A DNA stretch of 55,003 nt from Dehalococcoidia bacterium (GTDB lineage: Bacteria > Chloroflexota > Dehalococcoidia > Tepidiformales > Tepidiformaceae), in assembly GCA_020432045.1 (NCBI GenBank), contig JAGQHB010000055.1:1-55003 (forward strand), written 5' to 3'. Position numbers and translations under genes: made by a program. Shown one piece after another: positions 40,956 to 49,866 of this stretch (position 1 is its first letter; every line of letters starts with the position of its first letter). The notes beneath the pieces are model-generated. The model was not told where the DNA came from. It did not search any database and was given only the letters and a program-made list of their open reading frames with translations.

Positions 40956-42323
40956 ATGTCCGTTCGATTGCTCGATACATTGACGGGTACCTTGCAGGAG
41001 CTGCCACCTGCGCCGTACGAAGTGAAACTCTACGTGTGCGGGATTACGCCGTATTCATCAAGTCACATCGGCCACGCGGTGCCGATTATCGTGTTCGACG
41101 CGCTCGTGAGGTACCTGCGGTATCGCGGGTACGCGGTGCGGCACGTCACGAACTTCACGGACATTGACGACAAGCTGATCGCGGCAGCGGAAGCGCAGAA
41201 CACGACGGTGAAGGCGCTGGCGGACAAGTTCAGCGACCAGTACCTCGGCAGCCTGAAGCGGCTGAACGCGCGCCCGGCGGACGTGTACCCGCGGGCGACG
41301 GAAGAGATCTCGCGGATCGTGGAGATTACGCAGGGGCTGATAGAGCGGGGGTACGCGTACGAATCCGAAGGGGACGTGTATTACAGGGTCCGCAAGAAGG
41401 ACGACTACGGCAAGCTTTCGCACCGGAAGATCGACGACCTGAAGAGCGGGGCACGCATCGACCCGACGGAGCGGAAGGAAGATCCCCTCGATTTCGCCCT
41501 ATGGAAGGGCGCCAAGCCGGGCGAACCCTCATGGGATTCGCCTTTTGGGCCGGGAAGGCCGGGCTGGCACATCGAGTGCTCGGCGATGTCGTACGGGCAC
41601 CTGGGCGAACAGATCGACATCCACGGCGGCGGTGCGGACCTGATTTTCCCCCACCACGAGAACGAAATCGCGCAGACGGAGGGATTCACCGGGAAGGCAC
41701 CATTCGCAAAGGTGTGGATGCACAACGCGCTGCTGCAGATGGACAGCGACAAGATGTCGAAGTCAACAGGGAACGTGGTCGACCTGGATGCGGTAATCGA
41801 CCGCTGGGGGGCGGACGCGATCCGGCTTTTCATCCTGAGCAGCCACTACCGTAGCCCGCTGACATATTCCGAAGAGGCGCTGCAAGCGGCAGGGCGCGGA
41901 GCTGAACGGATGCGGGCAGCGGCGTTTGCAACGCCTTCGGGGACGATTCCTGGCCCGGATGTCTCGGGACTGCGCGAGCAGTTCGAAGGCCACATGGACG
42001 ACGACCTTGGCACCGCAGAGGCGATCGCGGTGCTGTTCGACCTTGTGCGGCTGATCAACCGGGAACGGGACGCGGGGCACGACACGCGCGCGATGCAGGA
42101 GCTGTTGCGCGAGCTGGCAGGTGTCCTCGGGTTCGGGCTGGAGGCGGCGCATGGAGGTTCGCGCGATGCGGACCCGTTCATTGATTTGCTGGTCCAGGTG
42201 CGGACTGAAATGCGGGCGGCGAAACAGTGGGCGTTCAGTGACCAGATCCGGGATGGGTTGAAGGAGCTGGGCGTTGAGCTGAAGGACAGTGCCGAGGGGA
42301 CCATCTGGATCGTCAGTCCGTAG
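40956..42323 (+). CDS. cysS: Cysteinyl-tRNA synthetase
   Basis: A 455-residue class I synthetase. Zn ligand Cys28 in LYVCGITPY; HIGH motif HIGHA at 37-41; zinc motif GWHIECSAM and HHENEIAQ; KMSKS motif DKMSKSTGN. A DALR-like C-terminal domain is shortened. GAGG lies 6 nt before the ATG at 40956 (an earlier ATG at 40944 overlaps this Shine-Dalgarno). A long structured leader precedes it. It converges on the giant kinase gene, overlapping its 3' end by 11 nt. Confidence 0.96.
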   Translation: MSVRLLDTLTGTLQELPPAPYEVKLYVCGITPYSSSHIGHAVPIIVFDALVRYLRYRGYAVRHVTNFTDIDDKLIAAAEAQNTTVKALADKFSDQYLGSLKRLNARPADVYPRATEEISRIVEITQGLIERGYAYESEGDVYYRVRKKDDYGKLSHRKIDDLKSGARIDPTERKEDPLDFALWKGAKPGEPSWDSPFGPGRPGWHIECSAMSYGHLGEQIDIHGGGADLIFPHHENEIAQTEGFTGKAPFAKVWMHNALLQMDSDKMSKSTGNVVDLDAVIDRWGADAIRLFILSSHYRSPLTYSEEALQAAGRGAERMRAAAFATPSGTIPGPDVSGLREQFEGHMDDDLGTAEAIAVLFDLVRLINRERDAGHDTRAMQELLRELAGVLGFGLEAAHGGSRDADPFIDLLVQVRTEMRAAKQWAFSDQIRDGLKELGVELKDSAEGTIWIVSP

Positions 42324-45300
42324 AGTCGCCTGGTTCAACCGGGATCTCGACGCGCAGGTGGGCACCGTGGCCACGCTCGCTTTCGATGGTGATGACACCA
42401 CCGACGCGTGTGACACGTTCACGCATGGACTTGAGCCCGAGGTGTCCGGGGAAGTCTCCGCCTGGATCGAAGCCCTGACCATCGTCTCGCAGGTCAAGGA
42501 TGACAGCTGCATCAGTCGAGCCGAGATAGATATCGACGTGCGTGGCGCGCGCATGTTTGACGACGTTATGGAGAGCTTCCTGGGCGACGCGGTAGAGTGT
42601 TTCCTTGATTGGGAGCGGAACGCCGGGCTCGCCTTCGAGTGTGGCATCGACGGCGACGCCATAGCGGGCACGGGTGGAGGCGACTTGCTTTTCGATGGCC
42701 GCGAGCAGGCCCTCCTGGGCCAGGGATTCGGGGCGTAGCTCGAAGATGAGGGCGCGCATTTCGGCCAGTCCGGCTTCCGCGAGCGAAAGGACGTAATCGA
42801 CGGGTTCTTTGGCTTTCTCGGGGTCACGGTCCAGGAGCGTTCTAGCGGTCCGGGAACCGAGTGCGACGCCATAGAGTGCCTGGGAAACGGAATCGTGGAG
42901 TTCGCGGGCGAGGCGTTGGCGCTCTTCGATGGCTGCGAGGGACTGAGCCCGCTCGTAGAGGCGGGCATTCTCGACGGCGACTTCGGCGCGGCGGACCAGT
43001 GCGGCGAAGAGGCGCTGTTCCTCGGCCGAGAACTGCCTGGGGCGGAAGGAGACGCCACCGACGTAGGCGTAGCCATCATCGTGGGCGCGGAGCGAAAACT
43101 GGACGAGGCCACCGACGCGCAGCTGGAGCAGGCTTTCACGTTCTTCGGCGGGGAGACCTTCGCCGGCGATGACGACGTCCACGTTGTCGCGGGCGAGGTA
43201 TTCGAGGAATCCCTGGCGGCCTGCTCGCACCAGGGCATCGATGACGAGGGCGACGTGTTCTTCGGCGACGGGACGGGCAAGGCGAAGCGTGGGTCTCGGC
43301 ATGTCCGGGTCCCAGGTGATGAGCACGGCGGTATCGAGGTGGAGCGAGTCGGTAATCGAATGGAGCAAGGCGTCGAATACGTCTTCGAGCACGAGGGAAC
43401 GGTGGAGGTCTTCGTCGGCGCGATAGAGGGCTGCAAGCTGTTCGGTGCGGGCCCGGGCACTTTCGTACAGGCGGGCGTTCTCGATCGCCAGGGAGGCACG
43501 GCGGGCGACGGCTTCAAAGATTCGGCGATCACTGTCGCTAAAGGCGTGAGGTTGGAACTGGTAACCGGCGAGCAAACCGAAGACGTCGTCGCCGACGAGG
43601 ATGCCGGTTTCGATGATCGAACGAATGCCGACAGCGCGGGTCCGTTCCTGGGAAGCGAGAGGGTTGCCGGTGGTCTCTGCGAGGGCGATGAGTGCCTCTG
43701 CGCGGCGGCGGGCGCGGTCTTCGAAACGTGCGCGACCTTCAGCGGTGATATTGGCGACGACGGCGGCCTTTGCCCAGTCCTCTGAGGCGCCGGCAGTAAG
43801 AAGGCGGGGCCGGGAGGTATCGGGCTCCCAGAGCTGGAGGGCGGCACCGTCCACGCCGAGAAGATCTACGGCAACTTCCAGGAGCGCATTGAGCACATCG
43901 TCGAGGACGAGCGAACGGTGGAGGATCTCGTCGGCACGGTAGAGGGCCGTGATCTCACTGGTGCGGGCCTGGACCTCCTCGAAGAGGCGGGCGTTATCGA
44001 GGACGATCGCGGTGCGTTCGGCGAGCGCCTTGAAGAAGGCCATTTCATCGGCCGAGGGGGCCGCGTCGCCTTCGAGAAACAGGACGATGTTGGCGCGGGT
44101 GCGGTCGCGATATGCGGACGGCACACGGACCATACAGTCTGACTTTAGCCGTCCGACGAACGGGCGTAGCGGGGCGAGTGCAGCATCGCTGGCAACCCAC
44201 TCGGCGAGACCGGTGACGACGTGTGGCTCGTCGAAGCGTTCGAAGTGGTTCCAGAACTCCGGCGAAGCGATGCGGGCATCCTGCACGGCGGCGAGGAAGC
44301 CATCGGGAAGGCCAAACGCGCCGCGTGGCCCTCCCGCCGCCGAATTGTCGATGAGCCGGACGATGGCCCCGGAGGCGCCAGTCTGCGAGGCGATCGTGGC
44401 GGCAAGGACATCAAGCGCTTCACCGAGCGGACGCCCATAGGAGAACGCGGCGGAGACGGCAGCGAGCGCCTCTTGTTCGCGGGCACGCCGGGTGACTTCG
44501 GAAAGGAGGCGGGCACTTTCGATAGCGACGGCAGCCTGGTCCGCGATGGCGCGGAGGAGGTTGAGGTCGGATTCGGAGGGCGTTTTCCCCTCCGGGAAGT
44601 AGCCGGTGAGGGCGCCAAGCACCAGATGTTCGTAGCGGATGGGAACGAGGACGACGGCATCGAATGCCGCGGCGCGGACATGATCCCAGATGGGCCGGTA
44701 GCGCCTGGAGGCGAGTAGGCCGGCGCGGCTGCGGATGAAGTAAGGGTGATCTGTGGCGTCCCTATAGAGGTACTCAGGATCTTCGTAGAGAGTGGGATCG
44801 CCGAAGATCTCGCGGATACCATCGAGGTACCCGTCGGGGAGGCCATACCCGGTAGCAAAGGCGACGGCGCTGCGTTCGGCCCGGCTGGAGATGGTGACGG
44901 CGCAGGCCACGAGTTCGGTGGCTTCGGTGACGCGACGGGCGAGATCCTGAAGCGTGCTTTCGATGGGGCGGACGGTGGTGAAGCTTTCGGCAACGGCTGA
45001 GAGGGTTTCGAATTCGGCGACGCGGCGGTTGGTCTCGGCGAAAAGGCGGGCGTTTTCGAGGGCGGCGTTGACCTGCGCCCCGAAGGCAAGAGCGAGGTCT
45101 GCCTGCCGTTCGTCGAATCGGCCGGGAGCAGGATCCGAGAAGAAAAGCGCGCCGACGGCCCGGGCCTGGGACATGAGCGGGACGGCCATCCAGGAGCGGG
45201 CACCTTCGAAGGCATTGGATTCCGCGCCAGCGAGACTCTGACGGAAGGCACGGCTGCCTTCAGAGTCTTCCTGGAGGTCTGCGATGATGATGGGCTGACC

Positions 45301-48300
45301 GGCGTGGAGGAGGCGGCCAACGCCAGTGCCCTCGCCGTGGCGGAGGGTGATGCCGAGATCCGAAAAGAAATCGTGGCCAGCATCGTGACCCACGATCGCG
45401 ACGGACCCATCCGGCTCGAATGTGGCGAGGGAGATCCCGGCACAGGGGATCGCTTTTCTGAGGCGCGCGAGCAGGGTGGCAATGAGGCGGTCGAGATCGA
45501 GCGTGGAGCCTGCTTCGCGAGCCGCATCGAGCAGGATGGCCAGTTCGTTGGTACGGCTGGCGGTTTGCTGGAAGAGGCTGACGTTTTGGATCGCGACGGC
45601 AGCCTGATCGGCAACAGCGGCGAGGAGCGCCCGCTCTTCAGCTGAGGGCACATCGCCATCGAAGTATGTGACGTACAGGGCACCGACCGCTGCGCCACGA
45701 TAAAGGACCGGCACGACGAGGACGTGATCCCACTGCACTTTTTCGATCTCGTGGTTGACGCCAGCGAAGACCGGATTGCGCAGCATTTTCGTGCGGGCGT
45801 CGTCGACGAGTATCTGCTCGCCGGTGGCGAAGGCTTCACGGGTGAAGGCAGCAGTCGCGGGAAGATTGGCTTCGATAGCTTCGAGAAGTTGGGGCGCCAG
45901 GTTGGCGCCACCGGCCATGGTGACGCGGTCGCTCTTCATGTCGACGAGGAAGAGTGCTGCCCCGGCCGCGGAGGTGACAGAGACGACGTTCCTGGTGATC
46001 ACGTCGAGGGTTTCGCGCATGGGCTGATCGAGGACGACGGCTCGCGCAATCTCGGCGAGGGCGGCACCTTCACGCGCCCGCCGTTCAGCGCGAAGGAAGA
46101 GGCGGGCATTTTCGATAGCGACGGAGAGCTGGTCGGAGATGGCGGAAAGCAGCCGCCACTCGGGAGGGGATGGCTCACAGTCGCCTTCGTAGCCGACCTG
46201 GAGGGCGCCGATGGCCCGGCCACCGAAACTAACGGGGAGCGCAACGACGGTGTCCCAACGAGCTTCGCGGATGGCATCGTGAATTGAGGCGAAAGCGTCG
46301 TCAGCGAGCAGGCCGGTCCGGACACCGTGGCGCACGCCTGGACGCCCCGTGGAAACTGCTTCGTTGCGTTGGCTTCCAGGGCGTTCAGCGAATGCCTGTG
46401 CGAGTTCTACGAACGTTTCAGGCAGGCCGGCACTGCCAACCATCGTCATGCGGCCAGACATCGGATCTGCGATGGAGATAGTGCAGCTCACAGCGGTGGT
46501 CGCGGCGACGACGCTGGTGGCGACGGTATCGAGCGTGGTACGGAGGGGTTGCCCGAGGGTGATGTTGGCGGCGATGGCGGCGAGGGCCGCACTTTCGCGA
46601 GCAGACTGACCGGTGACGGCGAAGAGGCGCATGTTGTCGACAGCGGCACTGACCTGGTTCGCGAGTGCCGAAAGGAAGCGCTGTTCGCCGGAGCCGGGAG
46701 CACGGCCGCCGGCATAGAGCACAGCCATGATCCCCAGGGGCCGGCCGCGAGCGATGAGCGGCAGGAAAGCTGCCGCGTTGGCGCCCATTCCCTGGAGCAT
46801 GGGGACGAGGGGAGAGGCATCGGGGAGCCTGGCGGCGATGGCGGTCAGGTCCCCAATAACGACGGGACGGCCATCGGCGAAGAGGAGGCGGCGGCCGGCA
46901 AGGCGCAGGACAGGCAAGCGGGCGACGGCGTCGAAGTAGCCCGGGGGCACGCCATGGCCTGCACCGGTCTCGAGTCGGCCCGAATCGTCGTCCAGCAGCG
47001 ATATCGAGGCGGCCAAGGCACCGGTCCCGCGGCAGATGGTTTCTGCAATGCTGGTTAGGGTGTCCTCGATAGGGCGATCCAGGGTTAGGTCCGACGCGAC
47101 ACCGGCGAGGGTCGCGTACTCGCGGGCAGAGCGCTGGACGTCTTCGAATAAGCGGAGGTTCTGGGTCCCGACGGCCGCCTGGTCGGCGACGGCGCGAAGG
47201 AAGGCCATGGTCTCTTCGGGGAACTGCTGGCCTTCTGGGAAGAAGAGGTTGATGGCGCCGACGGCGTCGCCGCGACAGGTCATCGGGAGAGTGACCAGGA
47301 CATCCCAGGGCGCGTGCTCGAAGTAGGCGGCGAGGGGTTGCCATTCGGGCAATGAAAGGATGAGACGGCGGGCACCCCGAAAGGTGGATGGCCTGCCGCT
47401 ACTGATGGCGGCGAAGATGGGTGTGGCGCCGCCTGCCTCGACGATTTCTGACGATGCGGACATGAACCCGGGAGGATGACCGAACGAGCCGAGGGCGTGA
47501 GTGTGAAGGTTGCCGGAGGCTGCATCCTCAGGGATGACGATGTTGGCAGCCAGGGCGCCGGTGGCACGGGCGAGGTCTTCGCAGACCATGTCGAGCGTGG
47601 CAGCGATATCGCCGGCGACGGCGAATCGGGCGGCAACACCGGCGAGTGTCTCGCTCTGGAGGGCTTTGCGCTCGAGCTGACCAAAGAGCTGGGCGTTGGC
47701 ATAAGCAACGGAGGCCTGTGCGGCAAATGCCCGGACGAGGGCTGCATGGTCGGGCCGGAAGTAGCCGGGTTCACTACGCGAAACGGTGAGAATACCGATG
47801 GACTGCCCGGAGGCGATGAGGGGTACGGCAAGCAGAGAGCGTACGTGGGCGAGTGCATCGAATGGCGTGTAGGTCAGGCCGAGTTCGAGTGATTCCACTC
47901 CACCATCCACCCCATAGATATCGGGGATCAGGACGTGTTCACCGGCGAGGAGCTTCTGCCAGGCGCCGGCGGTGGGGTCGAGGCGAAGGCTGGGGGCACG
48001 GGATGGGGAGGCGGCGAGGCGAGTGCCTCCCACATAGCGCCGGCTTTCGACGACGCGGAGGCTTCCGGGGTCGCCGGGATCGAAGAGGAGGAGTGACGCC
48101 CCCTCATAATCGATGACGTTGTGCAGATGCTCGAGGATGGAGCCGAGGAGTCCTTCGAGGGCGAGGGTGGCGCCAACTTCGCGGCTGACATCGAGGAGTG
48201 TGGCGATTTCGCGGGTCCGCTGTTCGACGCGGTGTTCGAGGTCCCGCTCGGTGGCGACCTGGGCGGAAATGTCACGGAGGATGGCGAGGACATGGACGCG

Positions 48301-48681
48301 GCCGCGAAAGCGGACGGTGGTACCGGTGATCTCGACTGTGAGCGTTGTGCCGTCCTGGCGGCGGGTCACTGCACGTTGGCGGTACGTCTCCCCAGCGAGG
48401 GTGGCCGGGACGATGGCGGCGAGGGACGAGCGATAGTCAGGGTGGACGAAATGGCCAGCAGCGACCCCGATCATCTGGTCGCGGGTGACACCGTGCATCT
48501 GGCAGGCTGCCAGGTTGGCCTCAACGATGACGCTCGTCTCGGGATCGGCGATCACCATGCCATCGGAGGCGGCTTCGAAGATGGCGCGGAATTCTGCTTC
48601 TCCGGCAACAGCATCGGTCGCCGCGTCAGCCGTACCGGGGGGCGATGCTTCCGGGCTGGGCCGGCTCCGGGACACAGCCAC
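42313..48681 (-). CDS. Giant PAS/10xGAF sensor histidine kinase (NarL/DegS type)
   Basis: A 2122-residue cytoplasmic kinase with no transmembrane segment. A PAS domain (about 25-150, AEFRAIFEAASDGMVIADP) is followed by ten GAF modules of about 174 residues, each introduced by a coiled linker such as LFEDVQRSAREYATLAGVAS, LFLRAERRAREGAALAEIAR or LYESARARTEQLAALYRADE. Modules 9 and 10 are close paralogues. The transmitter is HisKA_3 with His1929 in RLARELHDSVSQ, then HATPase_c (EALHNVVKHA; DDGQGFD; GHLGLKSMRERV). The GTG start lies 7 nt after the response-regulator gene. Individual GAF ligands are unknown; no bilin-type Cys was identified. Confidence 0.93.
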   Translation of the reverse strand: MAVSRSRPSPEASPPGTADAATDAVAGEAEFRAIFEAASDGMVIADPETSVIVEANLAACQMHGVTRDQMIGVAAGHFVHPDYRSSLAAIVPATLAGETYRQRAVTRRQDGTTLTVEITGTTVRFRGRVHVLAILRDISAQVATERDLEHRVEQRTREIATLLDVSREVGATLALEGLLGSILEHLHNVIDYEGASLLLFDPGDPGSLRVVESRRYVGGTRLAASPSRAPSLRLDPTAGAWQKLLAGEHVLIPDIYGVDGGVESLELGLTYTPFDALAHVRSLLAVPLIASGQSIGILTVSRSEPGYFRPDHAALVRAFAAQASVAYANAQLFGQLERKALQSETLAGVAARFAVAGDIAATLDMVCEDLARATGALAANIVIPEDAASGNLHTHALGSFGHPPGFMSASSEIVEAGGATPIFAAISSGRPSTFRGARRLILSLPEWQPLAAYFEHAPWDVLVTLPMTCRGDAVGAINLFFPEGQQFPEETMAFLRAVADQAAVGTQNLRLFEDVQRSAREYATLAGVASDLTLDRPIEDTLTSIAETICRGTGALAASISLLDDDSGRLETGAGHGVPPGYFDAVARLPVLRLAGRRLLFADGRPVVIGDLTAIAARLPDASPLVPMLQGMGANAAAFLPLIARGRPLGIMAVLYAGGRAPGSGEQRFLSALANQVSAAVDNMRLFAVTGQSARESAALAAIAANITLGQPLRTTLDTVATSVVAATTAVSCTISIADPMSGRMTMVGSAGLPETFVELAQAFAERPGSQRNEAVSTGRPGVRHGVRTGLLADDAFASIHDAIREARWDTVVALPVSFGGRAIGALQVGYEGDCEPSPPEWRLLSAISDQLSVAIENARLFLRAERRAREGAALAEIARAVVLDQPMRETLDVITRNVVSVTSAAGAALFLVDMKSDRVTMAGGANLAPQLLEAIEANLPATAAFTREAFATGEQILVDDARTKMLRNPVFAGVNHEIEKVQWDHVLVVPVLYRGAAVGALYVTYFDGDVPSAEERALLAAVADQAAVAIQNVSLFQQTASRTNELAILLDAAREAGSTLDLDRLIATLLARLRKAIPCAGISLATFEPDGSVAIVGHDAGHDFFSDLGITLRHGEGTGVGRLLHAGQPIIIADLQEDSEGSRAFRQSLAGAESNAFEGARSWMAVPLMSQARAVGALFFSDPAPGRFDERQADLALAFGAQVNAALENARLFAETNRRVAEFETLSAVAESFTTVRPIESTLQDLARRVTEATELVACAVTISSRAERSAVAFATGYGLPDGYLDGIREIFGDPTLYEDPEYLYRDATDHPYFIRSRAGLLASRRYRPIWDHVRAAAFDAVVLVPIRYEHLVLGALTGYFPEGKTPSESDLNLLRAIADQAAVAIESARLLSEVTRRAREQEALAAVSAAFSYGRPLGEALDVLAATIASQTGASGAIVRLIDNSAAGGPRGAFGLPDGFLAAVQDARIASPEFWNHFERFDEPHVVTGLAEWVASDAALAPLRPFVGRLKSDCMVRVPSAYRDRTRANIVLFLEGDAAPSADEMAFFKALAERTAIVLDNARLFEEVQARTSEITALYRADEILHRSLVLDDVLNALLEVAVDLLGVDGAALQLWEPDTSRPRLLTAGASEDWAKAAVVANITAEGRARFEDRARRRAEALIALAETTGNPLASQERTRAVGIRSIIETGILVGDDVFGLLAGYQFQPHAFSDSDRRIFEAVARRASLAIENARLYESARARTEQLAALYRADEDLHRSLVLEDVFDALLHSITDSLHLDTAVLITWDPDMPRPTLRLARPVAEEHVALVIDALVRAGRQGFLEYLARDNVDVVIAGEGLPAEERESLLQLRVGGLVQFSLRAHDDGYAYVGGVSFRPRQFSAEEQRLFAALVRRAEVAVENARLYERAQSLAAIEERQRLARELHDSVSQALYGVALGSRTARTLLDRDPEKAKEPVDYVLSLAEAGLAEMRALIFELRPESLAQEGLLAAIEKQVASTRARYGVAVDATLEGEPGVPLPIKETLYRVAQEALHNVVKHARATHVDIYLGSTDAAVILDLRDDGQGFDPGGDFPGHLGLKSMRERVTRVGGVITIESERGHGAHLRVEIPVEPGDSTD

Positions 48682-48688
48682 GACAGTG

Positions 48689-49336
48689 CTAGCTCCGGGC
48701 CAGGTCGGCCGCGGGCACGAGGCCGGTGCGGACGGCGTGGAGGGCAGCCTGGGTGCGGCTTTGGACGCCGAGCTTGCTGAGGACGTTGCTGACGTGGGTC
48801 TTCACGGTCTTCTCGCCGATCTGGAGGTCACGAGCGATCTCTTTGTTGGCGCGGCCACGTGCGATGAGGGCGAGCACTTCGGTTTCGCGTTCGGTGAGGG
48901 CGTCGGGGTTTTCAGGCTGACGCATTTCGCGCATGAGGCGGCTGGCAGCTTCGGGGCTGAGCTGGACCTGGCCCTCGGCGGCTGCCCTGATGGCATTGCA
49001 GAGGGCGTCGGATTCGGTGTTCTTGAGGAGGTAGCCGATGGCGCCTGCGCGGACTGCAGCGACGACGGACGCATCTTCGAGGACGCTGGTGAGCGCGATC
49101 ACTTCGATCTCGGGGAGCTCCTTGCGGAGGTGGCCGATGGCAGTGATGCCGTCCATTACAGGCATGAGGAGGTCCATCAAGACCACGTCTGGCGACAGTT
49201 CGCGGGCGCGGTCGATAGCTTCAGCGCCGTTAGCGGCTTCACCAACGATTTCGAGGCCAGCGTCGAGGCCGAGGAACATGCGGAGGCCCTGACGGACGAC
49301 GCTGTGGTCATCGACGATGAGCACCCGGATTGGCAT
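48689..49336 (-). CDS. NarL/FixJ family response regulator
   Basis: A 215-residue two-domain regulator. The receiver has the acidic pocket Asp9/Asp10, phospho-acceptor Asp55 (VVLMDLLMP), switch Thr/Ser (ALTSVLED) and Lys (YLLKNTESD). The LuxR-type helix-turn-helix is LTERETEVLALIARGRANKEIARDLQIGEKTVKTHV. The gene stops 7 nt before the giant kinase, so this is almost certainly its partner. The ATG at 49336 has GGGGAG 6 nt upstream. Confidence 0.95.
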   Translation of the reverse strand: MPIRVLIVDDHSVVRQGLRMFLGLDAGLEIVGEAANGAEAIDRARELSPDVVLMDLLMPVMDGITAIGHLRKELPEIEVIALTSVLEDASVVAAVRAGAIGYLLKNTESDALCNAIRAAAEGQVQLSPEAASRLMREMRQPENPDALTERETEVLALIARGRANKEIARDLQIGEKTVKTHVSNVLSKLGVQSRTQAALHAVRTGLVPAADLARS

Positions 49337-49461
49337 TTCCAACTCCCCCGGCAGAAGCCTGAGGCGATGAAGTGTATCAAGTTGACGCGGCCCTGTTGTT
49401 CCGCCGAAAGGCTGAGAGGAGGGCTCCCCGATAGCCGACGACGGGACGCGCTGCCGGGGGG

Positions 49462-49473: not shown

Positions 49474-49866
49474 GTGATGGATGCACGGGTACGGGTATTG
49501 GTTGCGGACGACGAAGCGTCGGTACGTCGCGGGCTGCGAATGCAGCTTCAGACGGAAGCTGACATCGAGGTGGTCGGCGAGGCGTGGGACCGTGATTCCG
49601 CGGTAGCCCTCACGGCGACGTTGCTGCCAGACGTGGTGGTGCTGGACGTGCGGATGCCTCGGGGAATCGAAGGCATCGAGGCAGCGGAGATCCTTCGCGA
49701 ACGGTACCCGGGGACGCAGGTCGTCGTGCTTTCGATGCACGATGATGCGAGGACGCGGGCGCAGTCGGTGGAGGCGGGGGCAGCGTCGTTTGTCGCGAAA
49801 AGTGAACCCTGCGAACGGCTGGTGGATGCGATCTTGCTAGCAGCGGGTCGCGGCGGCAGGGAATAA
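49474..49866 (+). CDS. Stand-alone receiver-domain response regulator
   Basis: A 130-residue receiver with no output domain. It has Asp12/Asp13 (ADDE), phospho-Asp58 (VVVLDVRMP), switch Ser in VVLSMHDD and Lys in FVAKSEP. The opening VRVLVADDEASVRRGLRMQLQ closely resembles the NarL regulator encoded divergently. It could tune signal flow from the giant kinase or act as a phosphate sink. The start is GTG 49474 or ATG 49477. Confidence 0.88.
   Translation: MMDARVRVLVADDEASVRRGLRMQLQTEADIEVVGEAWDRDSAVALTATLLPDVVVLDVRMPRGIEGIEAAEILRERYPGTQVVVLSMHDDARTRAQSVEAGAASFVAKSEPCERLVDAILLAAGRGGRE

Follow-up and report, generated by a model that had tools for sequence, protein, structure and literature searches.

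How signals pass along long tandem arrays of sensor domains, and what number of inputs a single kinase can handle, are open questions in the field. Both are raised by a gene in a stretch of 55,003 nucleotides from a Dehalococcoidia bacterium (Chloroflexota; assembly GCA_020432045.1, contig JAGQHB010000055.1), the whole of which is called the window here. The gene encodes a histidine kinase of 2122 aa with one PAS domain and ten GAF modules, and it is part of a two-component system that is real, intact and conserved and whose sensor half is unusually elastic. Multi-GAF HisKA_3 kinases as such were already known; what is new is that a conserved output is combined with zero to ten modules from three classes and with a coupler of invariant length.

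Anatomy of the kinase

The kinase gene occupies positions 42313–48681 of the reverse strand, on which all domains described below are encoded. It is an intact open reading frame (ORF) with a GTG start, as first described, and codon-position GC is uniform over the whole gene. A Pfam search of the complete protein returned a PAS domain (residues 30–138), GAF/GAF_2 repeats, HisKA_3 (residues 1920–1987; 72 bits) and HATPase_c (residues 2027–2116; 42.6 bits); the PAS domain and the DegS-type transmitter claimed in a first-pass annotation were thereby recovered. Together with family profiles, these matches give the order PAS-A-B-B-B-B-A-B-B-C-C-HisKA_3-HATPase, in which A, B and C are module classes defined below, and place the PAS domain at residues 28–159 (48205–48600).

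Modules were cut at the recurrent C-terminal helix 'NARLF', which yielded ten modules of 170–179 aa, and each was scanned alone with Pfam. Eight of the ten scored above a GAF cut-off, namely M1 (class A; 47683–48222, 49.7 bits), M2 (class B; 47143–47673, 40.5 bits), M3 (class B with its class signature partly lost; 46618–47136, 52.2 bits), M4 (class B; 46096–46608, 35.6 bits), M5 (class B; 45565–46086, 51.3 bits), M6 (class A inside the B run; 45037–45555, 57.9 bits), M7 (class B; 44500–45030, 33.8 bits) and M9 (class C; 43462–43965, GAF_3 at 48.3 bits). M8 (class B, signature again partly lost; 43975–44490) and M10 (class C; 42949–43449) matched GAF below the cut-off, at 15.1 and 15.4 bits. 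Family profiles score these two at 169 and 171 bits, which counts as supporting evidence only, because the window's own modules are among the training set of the profiles. Both also adopt the GAF fold in AlphaFold models. All ten modules thus belong to the GAF superfamily, eight by Pfam and M8 and M10 by family profiles and predicted fold, and the number given in the first-pass annotation stands; domain searches did not return far fewer.

The transmitter (42340–42948) has retained the phospho-acceptor His1929 and the N, G1 and G2 boxes, and its nearest solved kinase is DesK, with 29–32% identity. With HisKA_3, this histidine, the HATPase_c boxes and an adjacent NarL/LuxR-type regulator, the system has the features of HisKA_3 kinases of the DesK/DegS type. 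Identity with MadRS (NCBIfam) was considered and rejected, as kinase (193 of 500 bits) and regulator (184 of 300 bits) fall below the equivalog cut-offs. No transmembrane segment was detected in the window kinase, whose highest 19-residue Kyte-Doolittle mean is 1.69 compared with 2.6–3.0 in membrane-sensor relatives, in agreement with its earlier description as all soluble. In relatives L038, L039, L045, L047, L048, L127–L130 and L134 a dCache-HAMP membrane sensor precedes the PAS domain at the N-terminus; the window protein lacks it.

A conserved output half and an array of changing size

The cognate regulator gene (48689–49336, reverse strand; Pfam Response_reg and GerE) ends 7 bp upstream of the kinase start on the same strand. 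Its likely start is the ATG at 49336 rather than the GTG of the ORF at 49486, and the product, of the NarL/LuxR type, keeps the phosphorylation residue Asp55. For comparison, about 50 loci of the phylum were collected. Their transmitters are 52–82% identical to that of the window; the regulator is mostly 61–81% identical and usually adjoins the kinase on the same strand, so that the pairing is conserved.

The number of GAF domains in these loci was counted with family profiles; a PF13185 search at E 1e-30 counts per domain and gives no measure of array size. Where the output halves are clearly related, the number is 0, 1, 2, 3, 5, 7 or 10, with 0 in ten loci, with the caveat that draft genomes may hide or break arrays. 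More distant kinases (<50% identity) have 3–7 GAFs by the same profiles. On a tree of joined kinase and regulator sequences with 56 tips, Fitch parsimony requires at least 23 changes of GAF number, compared with a mean of 36 for shuffled labels. GAF number is therefore heritable yet often changed. The window kinase (ABBBBABBCC) groups with L039 (AAAABBC), L046 (AABBBBBBBC) and L038 (ABBBBCC) with a support of 0.998; L040 (AABBC) and L041–L044 (ABC) lie close to this group. Clearly, the relatives do not share an array of one fixed size, and the module turnover suspected from the sequence alone is borne out by the copy-number comparison. L046, the second ten-GAF kinase, has its PAS region in another frame (G009:C10; 8975–9550 and 9184 onward), which is either an assembly error or a true frameshift, and its contig ends inside the kinase domain.

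Pairwise scores and a tree of the modules separate three classes: A (M1 and M6), B (M2, M3, M4, M5, M7 and M8) and C (M9 and M10). Classes B and C form clades with supports of 0.995 and 0.985. The usual class order in relatives is PAS-A(n)-B(n)-C(0-2)-kinase, from which the window array departs once, with the A-type M6 inside the B run. The grouping proposed earlier from linker style is thus correct for modules 9 and 10, which are a class of their own, whereas modules 3–5 are only part of class B and modules 1 and 6 form class A.

How old is the array? The closest pairs within the window protein are M9–M10 with 41% and M4–M5 with 38% identity, and the remaining pairs share 14–35%. Most window modules are equally similar to their own neighbours and to modules from other genera: the raw score of M4 with M5 is 295 and that of M5 with its L046 counterpart 289, while M9 scores 287 with M10 and 304 with L039. 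Furthermore, the B runs of the window and of L046, which belongs to another genus, are collinear, the order from M2 to M8 being kept (permutation p = 0.0076). Because the similarity across genera equals that within the protein and the B runs are collinear, much of the array is older than the separation of these genera; single modules were gained or lost afterwards. Growth by successive internal duplication, as first suggested, is not supported in a simple and recent form. M4–M5 and M9–M10 are indeed the closest pairs, but identity does not exceed 41%, cross-genus scores are equally high, the B runs are collinear and an A-type module sits within the B run, and recent duplication was rejected as the main account on the module identities and cross-genus scores. 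In family f17, in which the A modules are expanded, a permutation test found no significant collinearity of A arrays. Close genome pairs point to purifying selection on every domain, with dN/dS of 0.03–0.32 (0.04–0.32 for individual GAFs) and synonymous changes near saturation in some comparisons.

Couplers, candidate operator and proposed mechanism

Coupler spacing was measured from the Asn of 'NARLF' to the first residue of the conserved helix of the next module, the two anchors being placed separately. It is 17 in all GAF–GAF junctions of the family (82/82) and 15 in all GAF–kinase junctions (40/40), whereas the module core between couplers measures anywhere from 145 to 184 residues, a difference of up to 39. 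The recurring linker seen in the first reading is real, and its length is invariant across family junctions. In AlphaFold models of PAS-M1-M2 (pLDDT 82.8) and M8-M9-M10-kinase (82.2) the inter-GAF coupler is a single helix of 43–44 residues, and a 67-residue helix runs into the kinase. Other long GAF-array kinases of the phylum (L167–L178) have a spacing of 17 in 55 of 86 couplers, and most of the others measure 21, 24, 27 or 42; these values equal 17 plus 4, 7, 10 or 25, near multiples of 3.5, as expected under a helical register rule. A few assignments at 13, 14 and 34 in these unrelated arrays look like anchor errors. In LOV kinases signalling has been shown experimentally to depend on coupler length with heptad periodicity, and the same has been proposed for regularly spaced PAS/GAF tandems (PMC6798134).

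A possible target of the regulator was found in its own promoter. The region between the regulator gene and a divergent receiver gene (see below) contains the candidate operator TCCGCCGAAAGGCTGA (49400–49415, forward strand), which matches the motif TCCGCCnAAAGGCnGA. At 12 or more of 13 core positions this motif is present in 8 of 43 regulator upstream regions, compared with 0.07 expected from dinucleotide shuffles, the 43 loci being related and so not counting as fully independent observations. When up to one mismatch is allowed, six genomes together contain 30 sites, compared with nine for the reversed pattern. Genome G015 has a separately located receiver gene of the same kind (L201) with a one-mismatch site 72 bp before it, and further sites lie in front of genes for an FAD oxidase (G000, G592) and for an MMPL transporter (G000, G401). 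TCCGCCnAAAGGCnGA is thus a candidate operator of the regulator.

The anatomy, the operon, the conserved output, the copy-number turnover and the constant coupler length are observed; the coupler data are most naturally read as a helical spine with preserved register on which modules would be interchangeable. On balance we consider it rather probable that the protein is a cytoplasmic, dimeric multi-input kinase whose fixed-register couplers keep the kinase coupled when modules are gained or lost. The PAS and GAF modules would be attached to a continuous spine of equal-length couplers, predicted to be helical, and the spine would be dimeric. Some modules would sense ligands, and a ligand-induced change in any functional module could travel along the spine as a rotation or change of register to the HisKA_3 domain. 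The kinase would then phosphorylate the adjacent regulator, which would probably act on the TCCGCCnAAAGGCnGA sites including that in its own promoter. Since every coupler is equally long, modules could be inserted, deleted or exchanged without altering the helical phase at the kinase; and since such changes would leave this phase intact, evolution could tune the number of sensors (0–10) with the output half fixed. We put forward more tentatively a stronger version: a register-locked, extendable spine with an isometric 17-residue coupler, whose 0–10 modules mostly bind different small ligands, such that one regulator might integrate several metabolic inputs.

Several points weigh against a signalling spine of this kind. 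The relative placement of the modules in the AlphaFold models is unreliable, as pTM is about 0.5. A coupler of 17 residues is also the commonest in other GAF arrays, so that its length may in part stem from shared ancestry or from the fold itself, and the inter-GAF helices of the prokaryotic CyaB2 are antiparallel (PMC1592074). M3, M8, M9 and M10 have lost class-consensus core residues, with their couplers mostly kept. Finally, the operator was found post hoc: for an operator, an unbiased k-mer search was negative against shuffles; its output included a gapped palindrome, which supplied the motif that was tested afterwards.

The loss of core residues under retained couplers is what one would expect if the array were mostly a structural rod, in which one or two modules sense and the others are ligand-free GAF folds that lengthen the dimeric spine and set reach, spacing or damping. 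GAF folds without a known ligand are common. In addition, B and C cores keep less of their consensus in long than in short arrays (0.68 vs 0.79 and 0.62 vs 0.76), a drop not seen in the couplers. Yet class A cores show the opposite trend (0.74 in long and 0.65 in short arrays), M2, M4, M5, M6 and M7 largely retain their class signatures, and a fixed array length is not required, because relatives with zero to three modules keep the same output. We see a rod as conceivable but doubtful. A mixture of sensing and spacer modules is plausible, though the trends differ by class and are no more than suggestive. The degenerate modules would also fit a neutral ratchet, in which duplication and decay of modules matter little for function because the fixed coupler renders insertions harmless. 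The frequent changes of GAF number, the very different compositions in sister lineages and near-recent array growth elsewhere agree with this view; the collinear order of M2–M8 across genera, the purifying selection that close pairs show on each GAF and the intactness of a 6.4-kb gene make it unlikely.

Least probable by far is that the GAFs bind bilin, heme or a cyclic nucleotide as in phytochromes, DevS/DosS or PDE/CyaB2. The idea arises from fold and sequence similarity: in structure the modules best match tandem GAF dimers, among them Cph2 (Z 22.6 over 304 residues), PDE5 and PDE6, and in sequence the class A profile matches GAFs of DevS and phytochromes, with DevS GAF-A matched by the class B profile as well. 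The window kinase has nine Cys, the first at residue 60 and none before the PAS domain, and no Cys-His dipeptide as for bilin attachment; a pattern scan detected no NKFDE-like motif in it; and no Cys or His is conserved in class A or B cores. Classes A and B consequently carry no class-wide bilin, heme or cyclic-nucleotide signature. Phytochrome chains have extra residues between the two stretches matched in the profile alignments, which class A lacks. The heme ligand of DevS is His149 (PMC4082495), and no His column reaches 65% in class A or B; the DevS profile match begins at about the ligand site, and single modules could still have such a residue.

Neighbouring genes, other arrays and known systems

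Divergent from the regulator lies the gene of a single-domain receiver protein of 130 aa (49474–49866, forward strand; Pfam Response_reg) at a conserved position. It is 38–59% identical to receivers at many of the relatives' loci, and accompanies the regulator–kinase pair in many genomes (window, L038, L045, L047, L048, L127, L129 and L201). It may serve as a phosphate sink or shuttle. A search for conserved neighbours besides receiver, regulator and kinase gave gene clusters that are mostly shadow frames of these three genes; a frame for an ABC-transporter ATPase recurs near some of the relatives' loci.

A size of ten GAFs is not exceptional. Other kinases of the phylum, in frames of 2644–2904 aa, carry 13 (L167, 5377–14088, reverse strand; L168, 5645–14104, reverse strand; L169, 1202–9502, forward strand) or 12 (L170 and L177), L167 and L168 sharing the same array, so the statement in the first-pass annotation that most GAF kinases have one to three such domains is no guide here. 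L178 (G172:C77, 3–4958, reverse strand) has about ten GAFs up to 70% identical, and its DNA contains 20-base repeats that are exact and lie about 1.06 and 3.2 kb apart, which indicates recent array growth; its contig ends nearby, so the size seen may be partial. The genome of the window encodes a second GAF-array kinase (L051; G000:C89, 5873–11104, reverse strand) of 1744 aa, in which six or more GAFs are combined with HisKA, HATPase, two receivers and Hpt. A search of plasmid records gave only matches of about 25% to generic GAF proteins. A limited literature search found no paper describing a kinase with ten tandem GAFs, an absence that is weak evidence.

The family combines one kind of transmitter and regulator with 0, 1, 2, 3, 5, 7 or 10 GAFs joined by equal couplers, and so forms a natural series in which rules of register, order and integration could be tested by deleting or swapping modules. 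The candidate operator would serve as a read-out, and the family suggests design rules for engineered multi-input kinases.

Kinases of the DesK/DegS type share with this system the HisKA_3 and HATPase_c transmitter and the adjacent NarL/LuxR regulator, but DesK senses through a membrane domain and the window kinase through a soluble input of PAS and ten GAFs. In the mycobacterial DevS/DosS and DosT with DevR/DosR, tandem GAFs likewise lead to a HisKA_3 kinase with a NarL-type regulator, which there binds palindromic boxes; DevS/DosS, however, has two GAFs, whereas the window kinase has ten in a variable array and no class-wide His. Cyanobacteriochromes and phytochromes (Cph2, GAF-PHY) also string GAF-fold modules on long helices, and differ in the bilin Cys-His and the chromophore segment that the window kinase lacks. 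The tandem GAFs of PDE5, PDE6 and CyaB2 resemble it in that a long helix connects two GAFs (Z 17.8–20.2); in the window there is no NKFDE-like motif, the output is a kinase and the modules number ten. The giant GAF-array kinases of the phylum (L167–L170) have 12–13 tandem GAFs and the same 17-residue coupler at most junctions, but other modules and outputs and variable coupler lengths, and they stand outside this regulator–kinase pair. Serial sensors on coiled coils are also found in the LOV/PAS kinases YF1/YHF, which show the heptad dependence on coupler length (PMC6798134); these are an engineered PAS/LOV pair, whereas the arrays of the window family are natural and hold up to ten GAFs.

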